Below, piece after piece: positions 2,129 to 11,878 of a DNA stretch of 12,132 bases. The notes beneath the pieces were generated by a model, which searched no databases, was not told where the DNA came from, and saw only the letters and a list, made by a program, of their open reading frames with translations. Source of the stretch: an uncultured Halioglobus sp. GTDB taxonomy: Bacteria > Pseudomonadota > Gammaproteobacteria > Pseudomonadales > Halieaceae. A program made the translations under genes and the position numbers. Within the stretch, counting starts at the first letter, position 1; every line of letters begins with the position of its first letter. The stretch lies in assembly GCA_905480565.1 (NCBI GenBank), contig CAJQQW010000391.1, forward strand, positions 1 to 12,132, read 5' to 3'.

Positions 2129-2440
2129 CTAGGACATACCCATGGTAAAGCTGCGAGTCATCGCCAGCATTGCGTCGGCCTGGAGGTCATCTCGCAACTT
2201 GTCTAGTTCACCTCCGTCAAGCCATACGCCATGGCAACTCGGACAACGATCTATTAGTACCATATGCGCAACTTCTTTTTGCATCACTGAATCGTCTACC
2301 GGGCAATGGCGAGCATTTTCCTTAGTGGCGTCCAGAATGAGCGCCATCTCATTAACGCAGGCGTCACATACAGGCTTACCCTCTTCCTCATTCCTTGTTT
2401 TTTTACCGCAGCGATCACATTTTGGTGCGAATAAAGACAT
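2129..2440 (-). CDS. Small zf-TFIIB-type zinc-ribbon protein
   Basis: A 103-residue protein starting at the ATG at 2440, chosen because GGAG (2448-2451) lies 7 nt upstream. A longer frame reaching 2578 runs back into the channel gene and is not credible. There are two zinc-binding modules: CDRC (8-11) with CDAC (25-28), and a zf-TFIIB-like module with CPVD (46-49), CPSCHGVWLDGGEL (66-79). The second module has Asp where the fourth Cys of a strict CxxC pair would be; CPxD forms are common in this family. Proteins of this type are small cytoplasmic zinc ribbons of unknown role. It lies 25 nt behind the channel gene, so it is very probably last in the same transcript. Any functional link to the channel is inference from position only. 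Confidence 0.85.
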   Translation of the reverse strand: MSLFAPKCDRCGKKTRNEEEGKPVCDACVNEMALILDATKENARHCPVDDSVMQKEVAHMVLIDRCPSCHGVWLDGGELDKLRDDLQADAMLAMTRSFTMGMS

Positions 2441-2465
2441 TATTTTTCTCCATTTAAAGGTGTAT

Positions 2466-3605
2466 CTAGTAGGTTGACGTCCATGTAAGCACAGCCACGG
2501 CGGCAAAAGCAGCGACAGAGACGCACTGGAAGATAAAGTCGACCTTGTTGATTCGCTCGATGGCGGCCGCTTTTTCATCGTCTTTCGCTTTAGTATAGAC
2601 GTTAGTGCCCCAGGTAAACAAAGCGAAAAGCCCCATCGCGATCATATAACTGCAGGCAAAAAGTTGGTCGAGAAAAGTAAGGTAGGGCAATGACGGTAAA
2701 TCGTCATGATATGCCTGCTGCAGAAAAATCAGGGTAAGTAGTGCTGTAGATGGAATGGCCAGCCGCACATCGCCCAAAGAACCGGCTACGGCTGGCGAAA
2801 GTAAAACAACCGACATCACAATAATCAGAGGAAGAACCCAATTTACAAATGCGCTCCAGTAATCGGAGCGATAAATAATTTCGAGTCGCGCCTGACTTTG
2901 CTCGGGCTGATACCATGACCCAAACTTTGATGGATAACGATGAATATAGCTTTTCAGCACCGCTCCTTTCAGTTGATAGCCACTGAGATCTCCAGACATG
3001 CCGAGAAAGCCATTTTGATGGTGATGCGGATAAAGCAATGTTTGCTCGTATTTATTTGACATTTCGTCGGGTGCGATTTCTGTAACAATGGGAAGTATCA
3101 GGGCATCAAAAGGGTCGCGGTGAAAATTTACTTCATCGTCGTAAAAACGACTCGAGAACCTATAGCGCTGATAGTAGCGTCCAGCAGAAAGAGTCACCGG
3201 TTCATCGGTGACGGGTTCAAAAGTAGAGTCCCAGCTCTCAATTCGATTGACAAGGCGTATTAAACGACTCGGAGGTATACCCTTTTCCACCATCAATTGC
3301 TGGGTTTTTGCAGACCATTCGAGCCAGACATATCCGTCGGCAGAAAAGGTACGGGATTGAAGCGATAGCTCATACACTTTATCAACGTGTATTCCGTAAT
3401 ACATAATCTGCTGATCTTCTCGTACCAGGGCAATATCAGCTTGAGGTTCAACAGACTCTTCGAGTTCGTCAAACACTACCGTCCTCGGTTTTATATTTAA
3501 CTCATCTTGGGTGGTGCTGAGCCAGAGACTAAACAGTGCGGCAATAATCAATAGAATAGGCAAAAGGCGCCACAGGGCGCGTCCACTTGAGCCCGATATA
3601 TTCAA
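2466..3605 (-). CDS. Pentameric ligand-gated ion channel (prokaryotic Pro-loop/Cys-loop superfamily) homologue
   Basis: A 379-residue protein with the full pLGIC layout. Residues 11-30 are a signal peptide or anchor; about 55-248 form a beta-rich extracellular domain with YGIHVDKVYELSLQSRTFSA (70-89) and the Pro-loop HRDPFDALIL (162-171); four membrane segments follow. M1 is about 252-272 (with P259), M2 about 279-299, M3 about 311-332 and M4 about 355-375. The M2-M3 loop and start of M3, LPSLPYLTFLDQ (303-314), resembles the LPxLPYxTxxDQ pattern of bacterial channels such as ELIC. The only cysteines (318, 361) are in membrane segments, so there is no Cys-loop, as usual in bacteria. The start is a TTG overlapping the upstream stop (TTGA), with AGGA at 3615-3618. 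These channels assemble as pentamers and open on ligand binding at subunit interfaces. Here the partner gene suggests gating via a binding protein, which is inference. Confidence 0.87.
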   Translation of the reverse strand: MNISGSSGRALWRLLPILLIIAALFSLWLSTTQDELNIKPRTVVFDELEESVEPQADIALVREDQQIMYYGIHVDKVYELSLQSRTFSADGYVWLEWSAKTQQLMVEKGIPPSRLIRLVNRIESWDSTFEPVTDEPVTLSAGRYYQRYRFSSRFYDDEVNFHRDPFDALILPIVTEIAPDEMSNKYEQTLLYPHHHQNGFLGMSGDLSGYQLKGAVLKSYIHRYPSKFGSWYQPEQSQARLEIIYRSDYWSAFVNWVLPLIIVMSVVLLSPAVAGSLGDVRLAIPSTALLTLIFLQQAYHDDLPSLPYLTFLDQLFACSYMIAMGLFALFTWGTNVYTKAKDDEKAAAIERINKVDFIFQCVSVAAFAAVAVLTWTSTY

Positions 3606-4876
3606 TGGTGTACATCCTGTTCTTCGCTATAGAAACGCGCAGCGTCAGATCTGGATTGCGTCCAATCACAGCGGTAGCCTTTGTTTGCAGGCAGGAGTTG
3701 CGACCAGGTCCTTGGTTCAACCACTCCAGCGTCAAACACAACGCTGAATTGGCCATCCGACTGCACCTCACCAATGTAAACGCGCTTACGTAGATGATGA
3801 TTCTTTGCTACCTCAACGCGTCCATGGGGCGCGTCGAAGGTCGTACCTATGAGCTTTTCCCGCACGCGATCTGGAGAAGTGCTTCCCGCCCTGACCACCG
3901 CCCTAGCCCATAGATGAACCATCGTGTAGGCAGCCTCGGCCGGATCATTTGTAACTCTATGAACTCCATGCATCTCTTTGAAGTTCCTCGTAAACGACTC
4001 GGAAGCCGGCGTCTCTATCGCTTGAAAAAAGTTCCAGGTGGCAAGAGACCCCTCCAGGTAATGAGCACCGATCGCTTTTACTTCTTCTTCAGATACGGAG
4101 AAGCTCATTACCGTATAATTATTCTCCGCTGTGACTCCCAGTGCAGAGGCTTCTTGGAAGAATGCCACATTGGAGTCGCCATTTATTGTATTAATGATTA
4201 TGCCTCCGTCGGGAAGAGCCATTTTTATCTCGTGAAGTGTCTCCGTCAGGTTCTGATCGCCCAACGGTACATAGTGCTCCCCCACAATGGTTCCCCCTGC
4301 CTGCAAAACCTGTCGCGAGATGATTCTATTGACAGTATGCGGATAAATATAATCGGAGCCGACGAGAAAAAAACGATCACCTCTGTTTTGCAGCAGCCAG
4401 TCTATAGCAGGGCCGGCCTGCTGGTTGGGCGTTGCGCCTGCGTAAAATACAAAATCGGAGCACTCTTCCCCCTCGTACTGCAGAGGATAGAATAGTAAGT
4501 GCTCGCGGGATTCGATAACAGGTAGCATTGCCTTACGGCTACTTGAGGTCCAGCCACCGAAGATTACCTCAACCTTGTTCACATCGATAAGTTTTTCAGC
4601 CTTTTGAGCGAACGTGAGCGAATCGGACTCACCATCCTCTTCTACGGGCACAATACGCAGCCGTTTTCCGTCTATCATCAGACCGCCGGCCCTATTGATT
4701 TCACCGATCGCCAACAACTCGGCTTCTGCTACGGTATTCTCTGAAATAGAAAGCGTGCCAGTGCGGGAGTGCAGCAGGCCGACAAGAACCTCGCCATCGA
4801 AGTTGCGTGCAGGAAGTGGATCTTCCTGGCAGGCCAAGCACAACACCAAGGACATAATGATCAACAAATAACGCAT
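3602..4876 (-). CDS. UrtA/AmiC-type (urea/amide) periplasmic binding lipoprotein
   Basis: A 424-residue type I periplasmic binding protein. I chose the ATG at 4876 because MRYLLIIMSLVLCLACQEDP is a compact lipoprotein signal with Cys16 as the likely lipidated residue; position -3 is Cys, not the usual Leu/Val. An earlier TTG at 4933 would add 19 residues and spoil it. No clear SD precedes either start. The mature part follows UrtA/FmdD/AmiC closely: VGLLHSRTGTLSISE, then FGGWTSSSRKAMLPV, LLFYPLQYEGEECS, ATPNQQAGPAIDWLL, FLVGSDYIYPHT, NTINGDSNVAFF and TNDPAEAAYTMVHLWA. In that family these segments line the urea/amide site. The usual ABC permease and ATPase genes are absent; instead the gene overlaps the pLGIC gene. 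The likely role is extracytoplasmic sensing of a small amide- or urea-like ligand. Confidence 0.9.
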   Translation of the reverse strand: MRYLLIIMSLVLCLACQEDPLPARNFDGEVLVGLLHSRTGTLSISENTVAEAELLAIGEINRAGGLMIDGKRLRIVPVEEDGESDSLTFAQKAEKLIDVNKVEVIFGGWTSSSRKAMLPVIESREHLLFYPLQYEGEECSDFVFYAGATPNQQAGPAIDWLLQNRGDRFFLVGSDYIYPHTVNRIISRQVLQAGGTIVGEHYVPLGDQNLTETLHEIKMALPDGGIIINTINGDSNVAFFQEASALGVTAENNYTVMSFSVSEEEVKAIGAHYLEGSLATWNFFQAIETPASESFTRNFKEMHGVHRVTNDPAEAAYTMVHLWARAVVRAGSTSPDRVREKLIGTTFDAPHGRVEVAKNHHLRKRVYIGEVQSDGQFSVVFDAGVVEPRTWSQLLPANKGYRCDWTQSRSDAARFYSEEQDVHH

Positions 4877-4942
4877 AAGGCGGCATACAATGTGGAGATG
4901 ACTCAACATTAGCATAAACGCCGATACAGGCAATGGGGCTTG

Positions 4943-5797
4943 CTAATATTCTCCTATTCTGCGCCCTTCCTTGCGCACCCACTTTTCCCATACGAAATAG
5001 TAATCCCATTCGAGCCGGTGCGTTTTGGCGAGTTCATTGCGAATTCGACGGCGCTTTTTGTAGGCTCCAGGATGCCACTCATGAAATTGTATCAAGAAGC
5101 AATCTACGCATTTGAGAAGATCACATTCGATCATTTTTTCAAGTAAGGGGAATTCGGCGCCTTCGATATTGATCTTCATAAGGTCAACGTTTTCCAGCTT
5201 AAGCTCACTCCATACTCTATCGATAGCGGCTATCTCAACGGTCGTCCTTGGCGCATCAGAGCTACTGTCTCTTTCGTCGTACATTGACGATCCGAGGCCT
5301 TTCAGTGTGAACTCTGCGGCCATGTCTTTATCTCCCAAGCCGTAACTGATCGGCCTAAGTTTGGGGTTTCCCTCCGCCTTTGCCTGAACCTGAGCATAGG
5401 AACGTGGATTCGGCTCAAACGCATAGATCACGGGATCGTAGCGATCAATGATGTGTTGTGCCCAGCTGCCATTGAAGGCGCCGACATCGAGCACCACGCT
5501 CTGAGAGCCTATTGCTGCTTCATGCAGGATATGAGCGTTATAGATCGTTGCACCCATAAACTCCATGAACGGACGTCGATAATAATGGAGTTCCATCATT
5601 ACTTTTGCCGGACCGCTGTTTTTGCGGTACTTCCACCGCATGAAAAAGGTACGCGGCCAGAAAAAAATCTTTTTAAGTTGGTACAAACTGGGGAAGATTG
5701 TTGTCATATTATTCTGTTGCAAACGGCCAGCTATTTGAAACACGTAATCATGGTATTCCATCAAGCGCAGCATGTCGACTTGGGTGCGTCTGGCCAC
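4943..5797 (-). CDS. FkbM-family SAM-dependent methyltransferase
   Basis: A 284-residue protein. Residues 101-112 (VVLDVGAFNGSW) form the glycine-rich SAM-binding motif I; 125-131 (YAFEPNP) carry the acidic residue that holds the ribose; VDLMKINIEGAEFPLLE (204-220) is the hallmark of FkbM methyltransferases. About 100 residues precede the catalytic domain and a basic C-terminal region (KKRRRIRNEL) follows. FkbM enzymes O-methylate sugars or polyketides; the substrate is unknown. The GTG at 5797 directly follows an in-frame TGA, so the protein cannot begin earlier. ATG codons at 5773 and 5761 are alternatives, and none has a good SD. The binding-protein gene starts 66 nt downstream, so this is probably first in the channel operon, though co-transcription is inferred from spacing. 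Confidence 0.85.
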   Translation of the reverse strand: MARRTQVDMLRLMEYHDYVFQIAGRLQQNNMTTIFPSLYQLKKIFFWPRTFFMRWKYRKNSGPAKVMMELHYYRRPFMEFMGATIYNAHILHEAAIGSQSVVLDVGAFNGSWAQHIIDRYDPVIYAFEPNPRSYAQVQAKAEGNPKLRPISYGLGDKDMAAEFTLKGLGSSMYDERDSSSDAPRTTVEIAAIDRVWSELKLENVDLMKINIEGAEFPLLEKMIECDLLKCVDCFLIQFHEWHPGAYKKRRRIRNELAKTHRLEWDYYFVWEKWVRKEGRRIGEY

Positions 5798-6158: not shown

Positions 6159-7163
6159 TTATTTGTTATTGTCACTTCTATCGACCGCGGCGGCAAAATC
6201 TGGATTCTCTTGATAAAATGTACGCCAGTACTCGAGACCAAAGGAATCTAGTGAGCTGATAGCTCCAGAGCTGAAATTCGTTCCTTTTAGGGACACCTCG
6301 CCATTGCTAATTGTTACAGTGACAAACGAATCTCGACTGGGATTACCCATACCCGTCGCGATATAGGTGAGTCGCCCCTCCCGATGAAAGAATGTCTGAA
6401 GAAATTTGGAACCTCCTCCAATATCGCCCGCCATGAGAAATACCTTTTTGCCTTCCGGCAGACTTTCAAGAAGAGGCTTCAGGGTGTGCAGAAAATATCG
6501 GTACCCACTGGGCGGATTGACAGGGTGCCGATAACGAAATACGGGCTCCTGTGCAGGGTTATAATAGCTCCAAAATAGTTGATGGGAAATGATAAAAATA
6601 TTGCGTATTTCTGTGTTGCTCGCTGCCTGTGATAGCAAATTTTCGAGATGAATTTCCTGCTCCTGACTGAGTATAGGTGTCTTCCCATTTTCGAGAAAGA
6701 TATATAACTCGCTGCCCAGTATAAAGTCGAAGCTTGGGTTACCGAATGCACTTGCATAAAGAGCCGAGTCATGTCCAGAGTAGGTTTGAGTATCGTGATT
6801 TCCCACCGCGTTGAAGACAGGTATAGGAATATTCTGGCTTGTCCACTGTTTAATATTGGCGATACTTTTTTCCGAAATACTGTAATACAGATCGCCCAGT
6901 GCAATGACAAATGCTGGCTCGTCTGCAAAAATACGTCCGAAATTTCTCTTTAAATTTCGATTCGGACCTTGTTGTTTGGGGCCCGTTCGAATGTGCCCCA
7001 GCGCAACGAAGCTGTAGTGACTCCAGTCTTGGTTCGGGTCGATTGCACGTTGGTTAAAACACGAAAGAAGCGGATCGTTCTGGCATGTTTTCGGCTCAAA
7101 CCATAATAAGCTCAGTAGCAATGATAACGCCGTTACGGTGAGGAGCCATGCTAGCTTGTTCAT
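6159..7163 (-). CDS. Exported metallophosphoesterase-like protein with altered metal motifs
   Basis: A 334-residue protein with an N-terminal hydrophobic segment (residues 4-21) that exports or anchors it. ATG start with AAGG (7171-7174) 7 nt upstream. The calcineurin-like phosphoesterase order is visible: strand plus FVALGHIRTG (52-61) where DxH is expected, ALGDLYYS (88-95), the intact GNHD (121-124), IISHQ (191-195), and MAGDIGGG (244-251) where GHxH is expected. Thus GD, GNHD and one His are present, while the first Asp and the two final His ligands appear replaced. The fold call is good. Activity is uncertain: it may use a changed metal site or be non-catalytic. It is the last gene of the DUF4956-CotH-VTC operon, 88 nt after the small secreted protein, so a phosphate-ester or polyphosphate-related role in the envelope is plausible. 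Confidence 0.75.
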   Translation of the reverse strand: MNKLAWLLTVTALSLLLSLLWFEPKTCQNDPLLSCFNQRAIDPNQDWSHYSFVALGHIRTGPKQQGPNRNLKRNFGRIFADEPAFVIALGDLYYSISEKSIANIKQWTSQNIPIPVFNAVGNHDTQTYSGHDSALYASAFGNPSFDFILGSELYIFLENGKTPILSQEQEIHLENLLSQAASNTEIRNIFIISHQLFWSYYNPAQEPVFRYRHPVNPPSGYRYFLHTLKPLLESLPEGKKVFLMAGDIGGGSKFLQTFFHREGRLTYIATGMGNPSRDSFVTVTISNGEVSLKGTNFSSGAISSLDSFGLEYWRTFYQENPDFAAAVDRSDNNK

Positions 7164-7251
7164 GGAAAAACCTTGTTATTAGAATACCCGTAAATAGTGC
7201 CGCGGCTAGGATTACAGGCCTACCATATATCGATCGTACGAAAAGTTACAC

Positions 7252-7830
7252 CTAATATAGTGCGTGGACTCGCACCAGGAAAAATTCATATTCACGGATA
7301 TCTTCTTTTCCATTGGGACCGCGATTACCTGAAATAGCGATAGGCGCCCGGTGCTTGAACTCAATTTCGAGCTGCCCATCCTGCGCGATACCGGGGGGAA
7401 GATCTATATTGTGGTGAATCAAGGGGACCTCACTGAGTAATTTCCCGTTTACAATTACCTGCGTTGCTTCTTTGTCGCGATGATATCTGCCGTGAATATA
7501 TAATCTATAGGGTTGTTTTCCCGGAGGCACACGCAGGTAAATTTTGGAGGAGCTGCCATCGCTCCAGCGGCCTTCTGGCTCTTTCCTGTGCCAACCTTCG
7601 GCGAACAGAATATAGCCTGTAACTTCATCACCAATTAGCACATGGTCGGGAAATGGTTGTAAATCAGAGATATAGTCTTCGAAGCCAGGCATTTCGTCGG
7701 CGACATTCCGAGCGGATTCCATCAGGCGTTGTTTTCGTTCCTCCAAACCTATTTCAACGTCTGCCAGCGTGCTCGATATGGGCAGGCAGATGGCAGAAAC
7801 TAAAGCCGAAGCTACCACTAAAGATCGCAT
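7252..7830 (-). CDS. Small secreted protein with a GW..E.GRWSDG beta-sandwich-like motif
   Basis: A 192-residue protein with a signal peptide (residues 1-23, MRSLVVASALVSAICLPISS, cleavage likely after STLA). After a charged helical stretch, residues 63-188 look like one beta-sandwich domain. It contains AEGWHRKEPEGRWSDGSSS (77-95) and then strands KIYLRVP, YRLYIHGRY, TQVIVNGK, LEIEFKHR and YEFFLVRVH. The 'GW/GFS..E..GRWSDG' pattern occurs in carbohydrate-polymer-associated beta-sandwich domains, so sugar or envelope-polymer binding is a reasonable guess; no enzyme motif is seen. The ATG at 7830 overlaps the end of the VTC gene by 13 nt and lacks an SD, which points to translational coupling. 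Secretion places it with the metallophosphoesterase-like protein outside the cytoplasm. Confidence 0.65.
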   Translation of the reverse strand: MRSLVVASALVSAICLPISSTLADVEIGLEERKQRLMESARNVADEMPGFEDYISDLQPFPDHVLIGDEVTGYILFAEGWHRKEPEGRWSDGSSSKIYLRVPPGKQPYRLYIHGRYHRDKEATQVIVNGKLLSEVPLIHHNIDLPPGIAQDGQLEIEFKHRAPIAISGNRGPNGKEDIREYEFFLVRVHALY

Positions 7831-8498
7831 ACAGTATCAACACCGACGACATATTTTGAATGGCGAAACACTCGTCCTGGCATGCCAGACAGCAGTTGCG
7901 TCGCTCTTTTCGCGTCCTCGATAGCATATTTGAACTCTACTACGACATCGACAGTGGATCGCCTCATATAGTCTGTTTGAATCGGAAACAGTTTCTGATA
8001 GTGAATGTCGGTATCCAGTGTCATACGAATGTTCGGTGCGATTTCATAGTACGCGCGCTCGTACTGCACATGCAGACAAGGAAATAAACAGAGCTCGCGC
8101 GTCAAGGCTCGACTGCGTTGGTGGCCTTTTAGTATGTTGTTGCTTACAGTGCGATCGAAAGGAAAAGCCGCCGCGGGGTTATCTAATGGTATAACAAGCT
8201 TGTTAGCCAGTCGGCCTCGTTTGTTTTTGAGTTCCAGAACCATTTCAGAGCGAGCATCGTTATACCAGCGGAATCGAGTTTTACCGCGGTTACTCATTCC
8301 AGACACGTTATCCTGATAATCATCGAGGAATGCGGTATCGAGATATACGGAATGAATCTGTCTATCTGCGAACGTTTTCTGTAAAGAGAGGCCTGACTGC
8401 CTCAACCATTCGTTAAAGTCGACGTACTGTGATTTCTGCAGAGGCACTTTTATTTCATGGCGAAAATCATTTTTTTTAAGGTCGCTATTCTGTAACAA
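7818..8498 (-). CDS. VTC-domain (polyphosphate-polymerase type) protein
   Basis: A 226-residue protein that is almost entirely a VTC domain, the tunnel-shaped fold of the yeast Vtc4 polyphosphate polymerase and of bacterial relatives. Charged residues that would line the tunnel occur in order: RHEIK (13-17), HSVYLDT (49-55), RGKTRFRWY (71-79), LELKNKRG (88-95), NKLVIPL (99-105), QYERAYY (145-151), RMTLDTD (158-164), VVEFKY (186-191) and HSKY (213-216). It has no signal peptide or membrane segment. Established members make polyphosphate from nucleoside triphosphate; that activity here is inferred. The start is a TTG, supported by GGGAGG (8505-8510) 6 nt upstream, and it overlaps the CotH gene by 14 nt. 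VTC genes commonly neighbour CotH and DUF4956 genes. Confidence 0.9.
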   Translation of the reverse strand: MLQNSDLKKNDFRHEIKVPLQKSQYVDFNEWLRQSGLSLQKTFADRQIHSVYLDTAFLDDYQDNVSGMSNRGKTRFRWYNDARSEMVLELKNKRGRLANKLVIPLDNPAAAFPFDRTVSNNILKGHQRSRALTRELCLFPCLHVQYERAYYEIAPNIRMTLDTDIHYQKLFPIQTDYMRRSTVDVVVEFKYAIEDAKRATQLLSGMPGRVFRHSKYVVGVDTVCDL

Positions 8499-11196
8499 AA
8501 CCGGCCTCCCGTAGATGCGCCTGCTGAAAATTTGTTACCGCTTGCGCCCTGCCGTCGATTCGAATTTGGCTTCCCCGTTGATTGGTCGCTGTGTATGTGG
8601 TGTTTGCGAACGTACAATTATCACAGTCGATTGATGCACTGCCGTATTCATTTTTTTTGATATAGGTAATCAAACCGCTGCCGGAAATATTTCCAAAATA
8701 ACTGTCTATAATATGAGCGGTGGACTTGTCTTTGCTCGCCACGCCGGTCGCAGCGAAATCAATATTCAGCTGGCTGGCATTAAGAGTCGATTCCTCGCCG
8801 ACTGAAATCGATTTATCACCGATATTTCGGAAATAGACATTCCTCAGCGTAAGCTTTGTGCCTGAAACGTCGACGGCATCATTGCCAGTATCGAAGAAAC
8901 GAGAATCTCGAAGCTCGCCCTGAGAAAAATCACTATCGAATCCGTCTGCGCGTGGCCTCTCAATCGTTGTTTTTGAAATGGTAAAATTCGATCTCACGAT
9001 ATTCAGTGCATCTTCGCAGTGCATATCAGAAAAAGTACTGTCGCTAATATCCACATCGCTTTCATAAAATGTGAGGCAGCCAGTTATCCCGTAATAATCT
9101 TGCCGGTTGAGGAGGGTAGCACTCCCTGCCCCTCGTAACATTGCATGCTGAATACGTGACCTGCGTGGGGATTGCGAAACAAGAATACCGCCCCATGCGC
9201 CAGCCTTTTTGTAATTTGGGGAGGGCGCTACTTCGATGGTCACCGGAGCCTCTTCAGTACCCTGTATGTATAGAGGCCCTCTAATCTTGAGCGTCGCGCC
9301 ATCTATTAATGTCAGGCTAGAGCCCTCGGATAGAATCACTGACCAGCCCTTATCTAGCTCTATGCTCTCACTGATCTCATGAGAGCCGCTGAACCTGATA
9401 CTTTTTTTAGCCGCATCCTGACTCACACCTGATCGTTCGGCGAAAACACTCCCAGACATATGTCTAAAGCCCGTTACATGATCACGATGCTGCGGCGTTG
9501 CCGACATGGTCATAGCAACACCGCGATGCGTATAGTCGATTGTGATTTTGGTTGTGTCGGTGAACGGCTGATCGATGTCCATGGTAACTACGTGTTGTTC
9601 CTTTACTCCATCCGCGTTGTATGCAGGAAGCAATTGTGGTCCTTGGAAAAAAACCGGGTCGTCGTACTCGTCAGCGATCGTGATCTGAATATTTTCGATT
9701 GGATCGTAGCTGAGATTCTTTATCTCTAGCGACAGACCCAAATCCAGTGGAAAGAAAAAAGCACGAAGGTGAGAATACAAAGGCGCATCGGAATATGCTG
9801 CCATCGAACTTCCCGTCTTGTCCGATACAACAGGCCTTGCGCTTGTGAACACGAGTGCCTTAAGAAAGTAGTAGAGATTCCGCACGACATCCTTGGGCAG
9901 CAACAGTCTGGAATCGAACCCCTCCAGCAGTAATATTTTTTGTTTCATTGCCTGCTTTTTCCGGAAAGTGCTTTGCCATTCTGCGGACTGATATTTCTCA
10001 AGCAACATTTGACTGAAGTCCAGTACATGAGTTTGGAAATCGACGTTGTCTCCCAGTCTGCTCGCAACGAAAGTATCACAGTTTTTATCGTTCTCGCCTC
10101 TTTCATTTGGGCTCGGTGCGTTATCAAATGCGATTGGCTCTAGAAGATTCGTTGTCGGATTGAAATAAAATCTTCGATTGTGGTAAGCCACGCCGTGGCA
10201 GCTATGCCAGGTATTGACGAGTACCCACCATCGGGCCATTTTTTCCAGGTCGAAAACGGTTTCCGCAGAGCGTTTACCATCGATGAAATCTCGGTACAGG
10301 GAGATCGCCCGAATCGCGTTAGTCGTCTTTGTCGATCCGAGTCGAAAAGGGGGTGCCCCGAACTGTTTTACCGGTAAGTCGATAATGCGTAAGTTAGAGG
10401 CGTTCAGCGGAGGGTTGTTCGCACCAGCTACTGAGGCGGTCTTGGCATTCAGGTCTTTCTGGCGCCATATGGGATCTTCATCCACCACCAGCACTGGGCC
10501 CTCCCGCCGACGCTGTGATTCAAGCATCTCTTTAGAAATATGCTCTTCCAGCGCCATGATGCCAATGGGGTAGTCATTGAGCCGTACATCAATGAAGCGG
10601 TATCTCGGCGCAAGAATACCCCAGTTGCGCATTTCATCGAGCATTATCGGTTCAGCCTGAAAGTTACGCGTATTAGGATGCTGTATCGAAAATCGTTTCA
10701 TGCCAAAGGCATACGCCTCGCCAAGCACTTTTATGCGGAATGAGAGCTTGGTTGGGTGCTCGTAATGATCTGACCAATCCCCCTTCAAGCGAAGGCGAGT
10801 CTTGAGCTTTTTTGTCTCATTACCAGTGTTCAGGATAATTGACGCTTTTACCCAGTCATTATCGTCCTTTATCAGAATCTGTCCTGGCTTGTCTAAAGTT
10901 TCTCTGCGCTTTCGGTACAACTTGTCAAGAGCACCATTGGTGAGATAAATCTTCATCACCGGCAATGTTTCTTTATCAAACGTCTTTCGCTGCAAATCAT
11001 ATTGTACATTGGAGGCATCTCGTGCCACATCCTCTACTGTAAGACATAGAGGGTTTTCTCCGGGGCATTCGAGGATTTCTTTGAGATTTGATGGGTTTTT
11101 TTCAATGTATTGGATGCCAGCCAACAGAGCTAATGCCAGTAACAGCGGTGCCAGCACGGGCAACACGGCAACATTTTCGAGAAATCGATTTATCAA
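8485..11196 (-). CDS. CotH-kinase-family protein fused to a C-terminal parallel beta-helix
   Basis: A 903-residue protein with a signal anchor (about 11-30) that puts the rest outside the membrane. Residues about 80-450 are a CotH kinase domain: MKIYLTNGALDKLY, TRLRLKGDWSDH (133-144), SFRIKV, YPIGIMALEEHISKEMLE (209-226), then WHSCHGVAYHNRRFYF (330-345) and IAFDNAPS (355-362) with the D/N pair expected near the metal. CotH of Bacillus is an atypical kinase of spore-coat protein; the substrate here is unknown. Residues 480-570 form a beta-rich linker domain. Residues 595-880 carry repeating short strands with Asn/Asp turns (for example SDVDISDSTFSDM, SNFTISKTTIE, TKLTLRNVYFRNIG), typical of a right-handed parallel beta-helix. 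The start is a TTG 4 nt after the DUF4956 stop, without an SD, so coupling is likely; no ATG is available before the anchor. Confidence 0.9.
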   Translation of the reverse strand: MINRFLENVAVLPVLAPLLLALALLAGIQYIEKNPSNLKEILECPGENPLCLTVEDVARDASNVQYDLQRKTFDKETLPVMKIYLTNGALDKLYRKRRETLDKPGQILIKDDNDWVKASIILNTGNETKKLKTRLRLKGDWSDHYEHPTKLSFRIKVLGEAYAFGMKRFSIQHPNTRNFQAEPIMLDEMRNWGILAPRYRFIDVRLNDYPIGIMALEEHISKEMLESQRRREGPVLVVDEDPIWRQKDLNAKTASVAGANNPPLNASNLRIIDLPVKQFGAPPFRLGSTKTTNAIRAISLYRDFIDGKRSAETVFDLEKMARWWVLVNTWHSCHGVAYHNRRFYFNPTTNLLEPIAFDNAPSPNERGENDKNCDTFVASRLGDNVDFQTHVLDFSQMLLEKYQSAEWQSTFRKKQAMKQKILLLEGFDSRLLLPKDVVRNLYYFLKALVFTSARPVVSDKTGSSMAAYSDAPLYSHLRAFFFPLDLGLSLEIKNLSYDPIENIQITIADEYDDPVFFQGPQLLPAYNADGVKEQHVVTMDIDQPFTDTTKITIDYTHRGVAMTMSATPQHRDHVTGFRHMSGSVFAERSGVSQDAAKKSIRFSGSHEISESIELDKGWSVILSEGSSLTLIDGATLKIRGPLYIQGTEEAPVTIEVAPSPNYKKAGAWGGILVSQSPRRSRIQHAMLRGAGSATLLNRQDYYGITGCLTFYESDVDISDSTFSDMHCEDALNIVRSNFTISKTTIERPRADGFDSDFSQGELRDSRFFDTGNDAVDVSGTKLTLRNVYFRNIGDKSISVGEESTLNASQLNIDFAATGVASKDKSTAHIIDSYFGNISGSGLITYIKKNEYGSASIDCDNCTFANTTYTATNQRGSQIRIDGRAQAVTNFQQAHLREAGFVTE
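8505..8510 (-). promoter_or_regulatory. Strong Shine-Dalgarno fixing the TTG start of the VTC gene
   Basis: On the minus strand GGGAGG lies exactly 6 nt ahead of the TTG at 8498 and inside the last codons of the CotH gene. It decides the unusual start codon and allows the VTC gene its own ribosome loading. Confidence 0.7.
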
Positions 11197-11200
11197 CGTT

Positions 11201-11878
11201 TCACGTGATGACTCGGGAGTTTGATGTCAGCGAAATTTCAAACCCCAGTCCGCTATCAGCAAATGCGTGTTTGAGTGAATCAAGGCTTGCCAGATCGATC
11301 TTCAGCGTGTCGATTAGCAGCTCAACCCGGTTATCTTTTTGATACAAACGTTTGATCTTGTACGTGAAATTCTGTCGCTGTAACAGCTTCTCGACGTCTG
11401 CCAGTTGCAGATTATTTCCGTCCGGTACGTGTAGAATGATATCGATAAGATTACTGTTGCTGCTCAAATGCAGCTTTTTAGTCAGGCCAAAAGGAATCAA
11501 AACTGCCACTACGACGGCGAAACCGATTGTTGTTACCATCACCTGATTAGCTCCGAGACCCAGCCCGATGGCGATGGCGACAAATATGTAGAGTAATTCT
11601 TCCGGCTCTTTTATGGGGGTTCGAAAGCGTACGATGGAGAGTGCACCCACCAGTCCCAGCGATAATGCAATAGATGATTTTATGATCGTAATTATCAGAA
11701 TCATAGTCGGTATCAGTAGTAGAAACATCGGAAGATATTGCCTGTGATCTGCTACCAGCCGAGTGGTTTTCGAAATGACCAAAGCCCAGATGACGGCCAT
11801 GATCAACCCAACGCTGAGATTCCGGAATAGCTCCAATAATGGGATATCTATGACAGCATAGGGATTAGCAAAATCCAC
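11201..11878 (-). CDS. DUF4956 family membrane protein
   Basis: A 225-residue protein with three to five predicted membrane segments in residues 20-132 and a soluble C-terminal domain (about 143-218) of alternating strands and helices, resembling small ACT-like or MgtC-C-terminal folds. The family hallmark SLGLVGALSIVRFRTPIKEP followed by EELLYIFVAIAIGLGLGA (73-110) is clearly present. Function is not established; the family is found beside CotH and VTC genes, which is the arrangement here. Start GTG, with TAAGGAG (11885-11891) 6 nt upstream. It is the first gene of the operon, and its stop lies 4 nt before the CotH start. Confidence 0.9.
   Translation of the reverse strand: MDFANPYAVIDIPLLELFRNLSVGLIMAVIWALVISKTTRLVADHRQYLPMFLLLIPTMILIITIIKSSIALSLGLVGALSIVRFRTPIKEPEELLYIFVAIAIGLGLGANQVMVTTIGFAVVVAVLIPFGLTKKLHLSSNSNLIDIILHVPDGNNLQLADVEKLLQRQNFTYKIKRLYQKDNRVELLIDTLKIDLASLDSLKHAFADSGLGFEISLTSNSRVIT

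Follow-up and report, generated by a model that had tools for sequence, protein, structure and literature searches.

Bacteria have many pentameric ligand-gated ion channels (pLGICs) and, to our knowledge, for most of these neither the natural ligand nor the role is known. GLIC is gated by protons. DeCLIC has been reported to be inhibited by calcium (PMC9897478). Cooperation between such channels and binding proteins was proposed in 2004, when Tasneem et al. (PMC549065) described, in a set that includes a Synechococcus protein, bacterial acetylcholine receptor-type ligand-gated ion channels (ART-LGICs) that are fused to type I periplasmic binding proteins (PBP-I) or neighbour stand-alone PBP-II or Cache proteins, and suggested that channel and PBP act together in ligand sensing with a chemoreceptor role. 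From the side of the binding proteins, a 2021 review of picocyanobacteria described "orphan" urtA genes without importer subunits and called their role and partners unresolved (PMC8786288), and a second urtA far from the urt cluster was reported in Synechococcus WH8102 (PMC6737895). Here we analysed a stretch of 12,132 nucleotides from an uncultured Halioglobus sp. (contig CAJQQW010000391.1; hereafter the window), in which a gene for a UrtA-type binding protein overlaps a gene for a pLGIC. Both proteins can be identified, their adjacency is deeply conserved, one natural fusion joins them, the urea-site residues are intact and many of the genomes concerned have no importer match. On balance, we consider it probable that the pair is a split ionotropic receptor, in which urea or a close amide is captured by the UrtA-type protein, which gates the channel by docking. 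The features of the pair are as follows.

3602..4876, minus strand: gene for a UrtA-type substrate-binding protein (type I, Peripla_BP_5), from PF13433, TIGR03407 and PDB UrtA matches.
2466..3605, minus strand: gene for a pLGIC subunit of 379 amino acids, from the open reading frame (ORF), phmmer, an AlphaFold2 (AF2) model, Foldseek/VIA-align and an alignment of 34 sequences.
3602..3605, minus strand: TTGA overlap of the binding-protein stop with the channel start, from the sequence.
2700..2771, minus strand: pore-lining M2 helix (channel residues 279-302), a helix of the AF2 model whose inner end carries D279 and R281.

The AF2 model of the channel has an N-terminal signal or anchor segment, a beta-sandwich extracellular domain at about residues 66-247 and then four membrane helices (residues 249-272, 279-302, 311-339 and 342-378, from its secondary structure), which is the architecture of the pLGIC superfamily. 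The fold matched GLIC and DeCLIC in Foldseek and VIA-align, and phmmer matched the sequence to PDB pLGICs at E 9.3e-7 over residues 71-357. A profile of the channel family reached E 3.2e-5 overall against solved pLGICs, a value built from weak single stretches. The Pro-loop proline, P165, is invariant in all 34 aligned family members; this position, between beta6 and beta7, has been described as the single most conserved one (PMC4795631). The channel thus shares with GLIC, ELIC and sTeLIC the extracellular and four-helix fold, the Pro-loop proline and the LP..PY features of the M2-M3 loop, which are present in the alignment, while differing from them in its identity of only about 14-18% in the aligned rows, its adjoining binding protein and its lack of a Pfam match. 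No cysteine flanks the RDPFD loop, so the window channel does not have the Cys-loop disulfide of the animal subfamily. Judged from its sequence, it is a very divergent pLGIC and a relative of the human neurotransmitter-gated channels. Pentameric assembly is expected from family membership, the predictions being of single chains. At the inner end of M2, D occurs in 29 and R in 34 of the 34 family members, and the D suggests cation selectivity by analogy with GLIC, the residues D279 and R281 having been matched by eye to the GLIC positions -2' and 0'. The extracellular domain is preceded by no more than about 60 residues, modelled by AF2 as a helix and stretches of low confidence, which leaves no DeCLIC-type extra folded domain; DeCLIC carries a two-lobed, calcium-linked N-terminal domain in the same chain (PMC12664993), whereas the window system has a separate type I binding protein.

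Two further observations concern the channels themselves. Several relatives (alignment A1, e.g. P0062 and P0080) have, by eye, a cysteine after a lipobox-like signal, and some of the channels may thus be lipoproteins. On a different contig, the window genome encodes another pLGIC, 354 residues long (L001:1117-2181, minus strand), which PF02931 detects.

The binding protein matched PF13433 at E 3.5e-136 and the UrtA chains 7s6e, 7s6f and 8hic of the PDB at E 8.7e-137 or better. Its TIGR03407 score of 482.2 bits lies under the curated cut-off of 492.75, so that this model does not call it UrtA; the pair binding proteins of some relatives exceed the cut-off. The gene could also start at an in-frame TTG at 4933. 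Eight residues around urea are strictly conserved in UrtA (PMC10392092), and the window protein keeps all eight. Seven of these positions are identical across all 24 pair proteins, and the eighth (Q144) is kept in 23 of them, the exception being L030. Six importer UrtAs (L044, L045, L046, L049, L050 and L052) share the eight positions, save an A at S274 in L044 and L050. At F192, a ninth position close to urea, the 24 pair proteins and the six importer UrtAs all carry Y. As the conserved urea-contact residues are all present, a urea-like ligand is a reasonable assumption, with urea or a close amide as the leading candidate. The window protein therefore resembles the importer UrtAs of known structure in family and in urea contacts, is about 59-62% identical to seven cyanobacterial UrtAs, and is unlike importer UrtA in its channel partner, its score under the UrtA cut-off and the lack of UrtBCDE neighbours. 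Comparing pair proteins with cyanobacterial UrtAs for residues that might mark a docking surface gave eight mild differences and was uninformative. In P0141 and P0143 a protein-kinase domain is joined to UrtA-type modules, of which P0141 seems to hold two; UrtA-type modules thus seem to act as sensors in other settings as well.

The initial annotation had described a "UrtA/AmiC-type binding lipoprotein" followed by a pLGIC, recognised by its Pro-loop, four membrane segments and M2-M3 loop, with a 4-nt (TTGA) overlap of the genes. The overlap is plain in the sequence, and the invariant P165, the AF2 fold and the phmmer match bear out the channel. The UrtA type of the partner also stands, with PF13433 and the PDB chains behind it; as for the lipoprotein, the protein has an N-terminal signal whose lipobox is probable but non-canonical.

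The binding-protein gene lies upstream of the channel gene on the same strand, and the overlap is consistent with translational coupling. A start codon giving exactly the 4-nt overlap was found in 10 of 22 same-strand relatives, and a start within 51 nt in all 22. Scanning a collection in which 84,980 species are represented by one genome apiece revealed 31 related loci, in Halieaceae and other Gammaproteobacteria, Verrucomicrobiota, Myxococcota and Cyanobacteria. A homologue of the window binding protein adjoins the channel at 23 of them, and L018 is cut by a contig end. The binding protein comes first at 19 loci, the channel first at three (L035-L037) and the genes converge at one (L034); pairing kept under three layouts points to functional linkage and not merely a frozen order. 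When neighbour-gene families were counted over the 31 loci and the window, the channel and binding-protein families occurred in 32 and 21 of the 32 sources and the next family in five, an antisense ORF having been picked in place of the binding protein at L022, L029 and L030.

The conservation at 23 of 31 loci in four phyla rules out chance adjacency or an assembly accident. Mobile-element cargo was also rejected: neither 50,697 phage records nor 72,556 plasmid records held a match to the channel, and viral contigs yielded no confirmed relative. The spread is patchy: 5 of 293 genomes sampled from the order of the window passed E 0.001, all but the window genome at 29 bits or less, and the channel subfamily is therefore not a general trait of the order. 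Channel relatives were listed as the best 120 of 448 matches. Among matches to stand-alone channels and binding proteins, P0097 and P0244 stand on contigs of equal size (142,836 bases), as do P0027 and P0138 (45,913), which hints at more pairs.

A search with the two window proteins joined into one query, of which we considered the best 120 of 2667 matches, returned a single protein of 761 amino acids (P0121) at E 3.9e-296, with 60% identity over 99% of the query. It consists of one N-terminal lipoprotein-type signal, a UrtA-like domain and a channel, in this order. The channel part starts just past the point where a stand-alone relative, P0090, has its own signal segment, the two being 82-83% identical. 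Since a sequencing frameshift would not remove the signal segment of the channel, we take P0121 to be a genuine fusion. Its topology would place both domains on the periplasmic side, and it implies a 1:1 stoichiometry for the fusion itself only.

The system thereby resembles those of Tasneem et al. in that a prokaryotic pLGIC is tied to a periplasmic binding protein, either by neighbourhood (23 of 31 loci) or by fusion (P0121). Set against the text of that paper, not its gene-neighbourhood figure, it differs in the stand-alone type I UrtA-type partner with an intact urea site, and in the occurrence of split forms and one fused form, in four phyla. In the open-access literature, preprints excluded and few subscription papers covered, we found no paper linking UrtA-type proteins to pLGICs. 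The general idea is thus old (2004); what is new is that the partner is a stand-alone protein of UrtA type, that the pairing reaches over four phyla, that a fused form exists and that there is a link with orphan UrtA.

Channel and binding-protein trees agree in their groupings. A Verrucomicrobiota group with two Gammaproteobacteria was recovered in both, with support of 100/99 for the binding protein and 89/100 for the channel. Pairwise distances for the two proteins correlated at 0.886 over 23 pairs (L020 was dropped, its channel being cut), while the highest value reached in 5000 permutations was 0.425. In the binding-protein tree, the pair proteins group with cyanobacterial UrtAs, apart from five importer UrtAs of proteobacterial type. 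The partner at the convergent locus L034 falls inside the cyanobacterial UrtA clade and is 84-89% identical to seven of its proteins, five of which have a UrtD match on their own contig. From this placement, it seems that a UrtA copy was brought next to a channel on a second, separate occasion.

We propose that the UrtA-type protein, secreted and probably lipid-anchored, would capture its ligand, urea or a close amide, while in the periplasm, and close around it. The closed form would dock on the periplasmic extracellular domain of the pentameric channel, presumably in 1:1 stoichiometry, and we infer that docking of the separate proteins would shift the probably cation-selective pore between shut and open, in one direction or the other. 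A metabolite signal would in this way become an ion flux. The main competing account holds that the binding protein is a concentrator, which collects the ligand and hands it over to the classical site of the channel itself, with no gating by docking. Such a model was put forward for bacterial channels linked to PBPs as early as 2004 (PMC549065), and the channel keeps a full extracellular domain of the ligand-binding type. The tethering of both domains in P0121, though compatible with hand-over, suits direct coupling, and a high-affinity binder would presumably be a poor donor; we regard the concentrator as unlikely.

The two proteins could also take part in the same response without forming one receptor, the channel sensing, for example, pH, calcium or tension and the binding protein signalling or buffering separately. 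The proton and calcium responses of GLIC and DeCLIC fit this account, and operons can hold linked proteins that do not interact. It is made improbable by the fusion P0121 and the separate recruitment of a UrtA beside L034, which point to closer coupling, and by other channels that adjoin a different type I binding protein.

As the family names indicate, UrtA-type proteins normally serve importers, and the binding protein could belong to an ATP-binding cassette (ABC) importer encoded elsewhere, its adjacency to the channel being incidental or only a matter of co-regulation. The initial annotation had noted no ABC importer genes beside the pair and had named, among its checks, a search for an importer partner elsewhere in the genome and the conservation of the pair in other genomes. 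UrtBCDE were indeed absent among the window proteins scanned, and the window genome, which is 74% complete, had neither a UrtD over cut-off nor a BPD_transp_2 permease. The complete genome of Synechococcus WH7803 likewise gave no UrtD, BPD_transp_2 or urease match; that strain has been described as having no genes for urea assimilation (PMC4923085). The pair itself proved conserved at the 23 loci in four phyla, so the proposed partnership passed both checks; the fusion adds support, and the interpretation given in the initial annotation is partly supported overall. Among 22 pair genomes, the window genome being searched apart, 12 had no BPD_transp_2 match, while 12 of 14 control genomes had one, most genomes being metagenome assemblies; 17 of the 22 had no UrtD at E 1e-60. 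The UrtA and UrtD counts, with UrtD taken at this threshold, cover 30 of the 31 loci, L026 being left out as the same isolate as L023. The incompleteness of the window genome and the urea importer or its permeases in 6 of the 22 pair genomes speak for an importer; the three arrangements of the pair, the fusion and the complete WH7803 genome speak against it and leave this explanation very improbable.

That the channel is itself an uptake route, with the binding protein feeding urea to a urea-permeable pore, would suit the frequent lack of an importer match in pair genomes but is hardly credible, as M2 keeps (by eye) the hydrophobic and charged positions of the pLGIC type, 16 of the 22 pair genomes have no strong urease match and we know of no pLGIC that carries urea. 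Strong urease matches (E below 1e-50) were found in the other 6 of the 22 genomes. Further pair genomes and the window genome gave weak part-length matches of 21-28 bits, some over the model cut-off, which are probably other amidohydrolases. With so few strong matches, urea, if sensed, may be a cue rather than food.

In the Cyanobacteria, the split receptor may extend to UrtA genes without a channel neighbour. Seven genomes had no UrtA-type protein adjacent to the channel; in six of them a UrtA at another place in the genome exceeds the cut-off, and four have a UrtD that exceeds its own, which leaves room for a shared UrtA. The genes at L035-L037, likened by description only, resemble the orphan UrtA of marine picocyanobacteria in being UrtA without importer subunits, and differ from the orphans as reviewed (PMC8786288) in the channel partner proposed here. 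The pair offers a partner for at least the orphan UrtA genes of the WH7803 type.

The wider channel family occurs in 80 of 251 genomes of the family of WH7803. A type I binding protein lies within 2 kb of at least 42 of the 114 channel places that scored 130 bits or more, weaker ones being dropped. By rough arithmetic, with genomes that are not independent, about three type I substrate-binding proteins (SBPs) per 2.7 Mb genome would put one within 2 kb by chance in less than 1% of cases. In 100 regions covering most of the channel places, a type I SBP was the next gene for 43 of 104 channels (34 divergent, 5 convergent and 4 same-strand), the SBP profile having been seeded partly from the same loci. 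The same-strand partners are UrtA-type, and those at L108 (divergent) and L111 (convergent, with the second WH7803 channel) are Liv-like Peripla_BP_6 proteins according to Pfam. The cultured strain WH7803 thus holds both kinds of pair. We tentatively suggest a general bacterial class of pLGICs that would use interchangeable type I binding proteins (UrtA-type and Liv-like) as separate sensing subunits; in cyanobacteria without an adjacent copy, the UrtA of the importer might do double duty, in import and in reporting to the channel.

Several arrangements in these regions deserve mention. At L188, L195, L199 and L207 a family with a weak Cache match and a major facilitator superfamily (MFS) transporter family precede the channel on one strand; the Cache match at L195:1570-3045 is below the Pfam cut-off, and the arrangement recalls the Cache operon described in PMC549065. 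In 5 of the 100 regions (L112, L113, L124, L138 and L145) another family adjoins the binding protein of divergent pairs, and its member at L112:6742-7887 matches a sodium/calcium exchanger, a possible hint about the ion carried. An ABC1-type atypical kinase family (f2) was present in 22 of the 100 regions (L109, L110 and others), many of them with divergent pairs. At L036 (L036:163-2545 and L036:6814-8160, minus strand), tandem channel copies stand beside one binding protein, with a third, distant channel nearby, and mixed pentamers are conceivable there. Long N-terminal sensory domains in cyanobacterial channels, suggested by open frames of up to 885 amino acids, were rejected: the extensions at L115, L119 and L121 resemble stretches lying ahead of an ordinary signal peptide, six of the seven frames scanned gave no Pfam family and L114 gave only a channel-domain match below cut-off.

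Several results weigh against the split receptor. P0121 is a single sequence from a single contig, and a further search, in which 7997 candidates sharing most words were scored, gave no second fusion (P0121 being one of ten matches). The predicted model of P0121 has a disordered linker at residues 395-449, a predicted template modelling score (pTM) of 0.49 and no confident domain arrangement, and hence says nothing on the interface. The Pfam pLGIC models give no match to the window channel. Common ancestry inflates the correlation of pairwise distances in part, the channel tree carries a long-branch warning and the pair label on it needs at least three changes, which means that gain or loss of the link happened repeatedly. 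No UrtA-type protein adjoins seven of the 31 channels, all of them cyanobacterial (L031-L033 and L038-L041), and one more is cut off; for 61 of the 104 channels in the cyanobacterial regions, some of them at contig ends, the next gene is not a type I SBP. Of the six pair genomes with a urea importer, five have a UrtD over cut-off, and in the sixth (G030) an importer-type UrtA shares its contig with permeases. Finally, the scarcity of strong urease matches, which extends to the window genome, makes urea less obvious as a nutrient cue.

If the pair is a split receptor, the importer-less UrtA of marine cyanobacteria would gain a job, and binding-protein folds driving a channel would be a bacterial parallel to glutamate receptors. 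In the NMDA and AMPA receptors, too, a module of the binding-protein fold is tied to an ion channel (PMC549065, PMC12664993); their pore is unrelated, and the present system is not a member of that family. Through such a two-part receptor, the presence of a small nitrogen compound could be read out as an electrical signal. With a conserved partner whose ligand site can be recognised, the ligand question of bacterial channels becomes concretely testable.

The following other genes of the window are on the minus strand. The two that flank the pair have no recurrence in relatives, and at the 31 related loci no family of the separate cluster turned up repeatedly next to the pair.

4943-5797, minus strand: FkbM-type methyltransferase gene, just upstream of the pair.
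2129-2443, minus strand: zinc-ribbon gene, just downstream of the pair.
6159-11878, minus strand: separate cluster of genes for a calcineurin-like phosphoesterase, an uncharacterised 192-residue protein, a VTC domain protein, a large protein and a DUF4956 protein (Pfam).

Within this cluster, the large protein has weak CotH and beta-helix matches below the cut-off.

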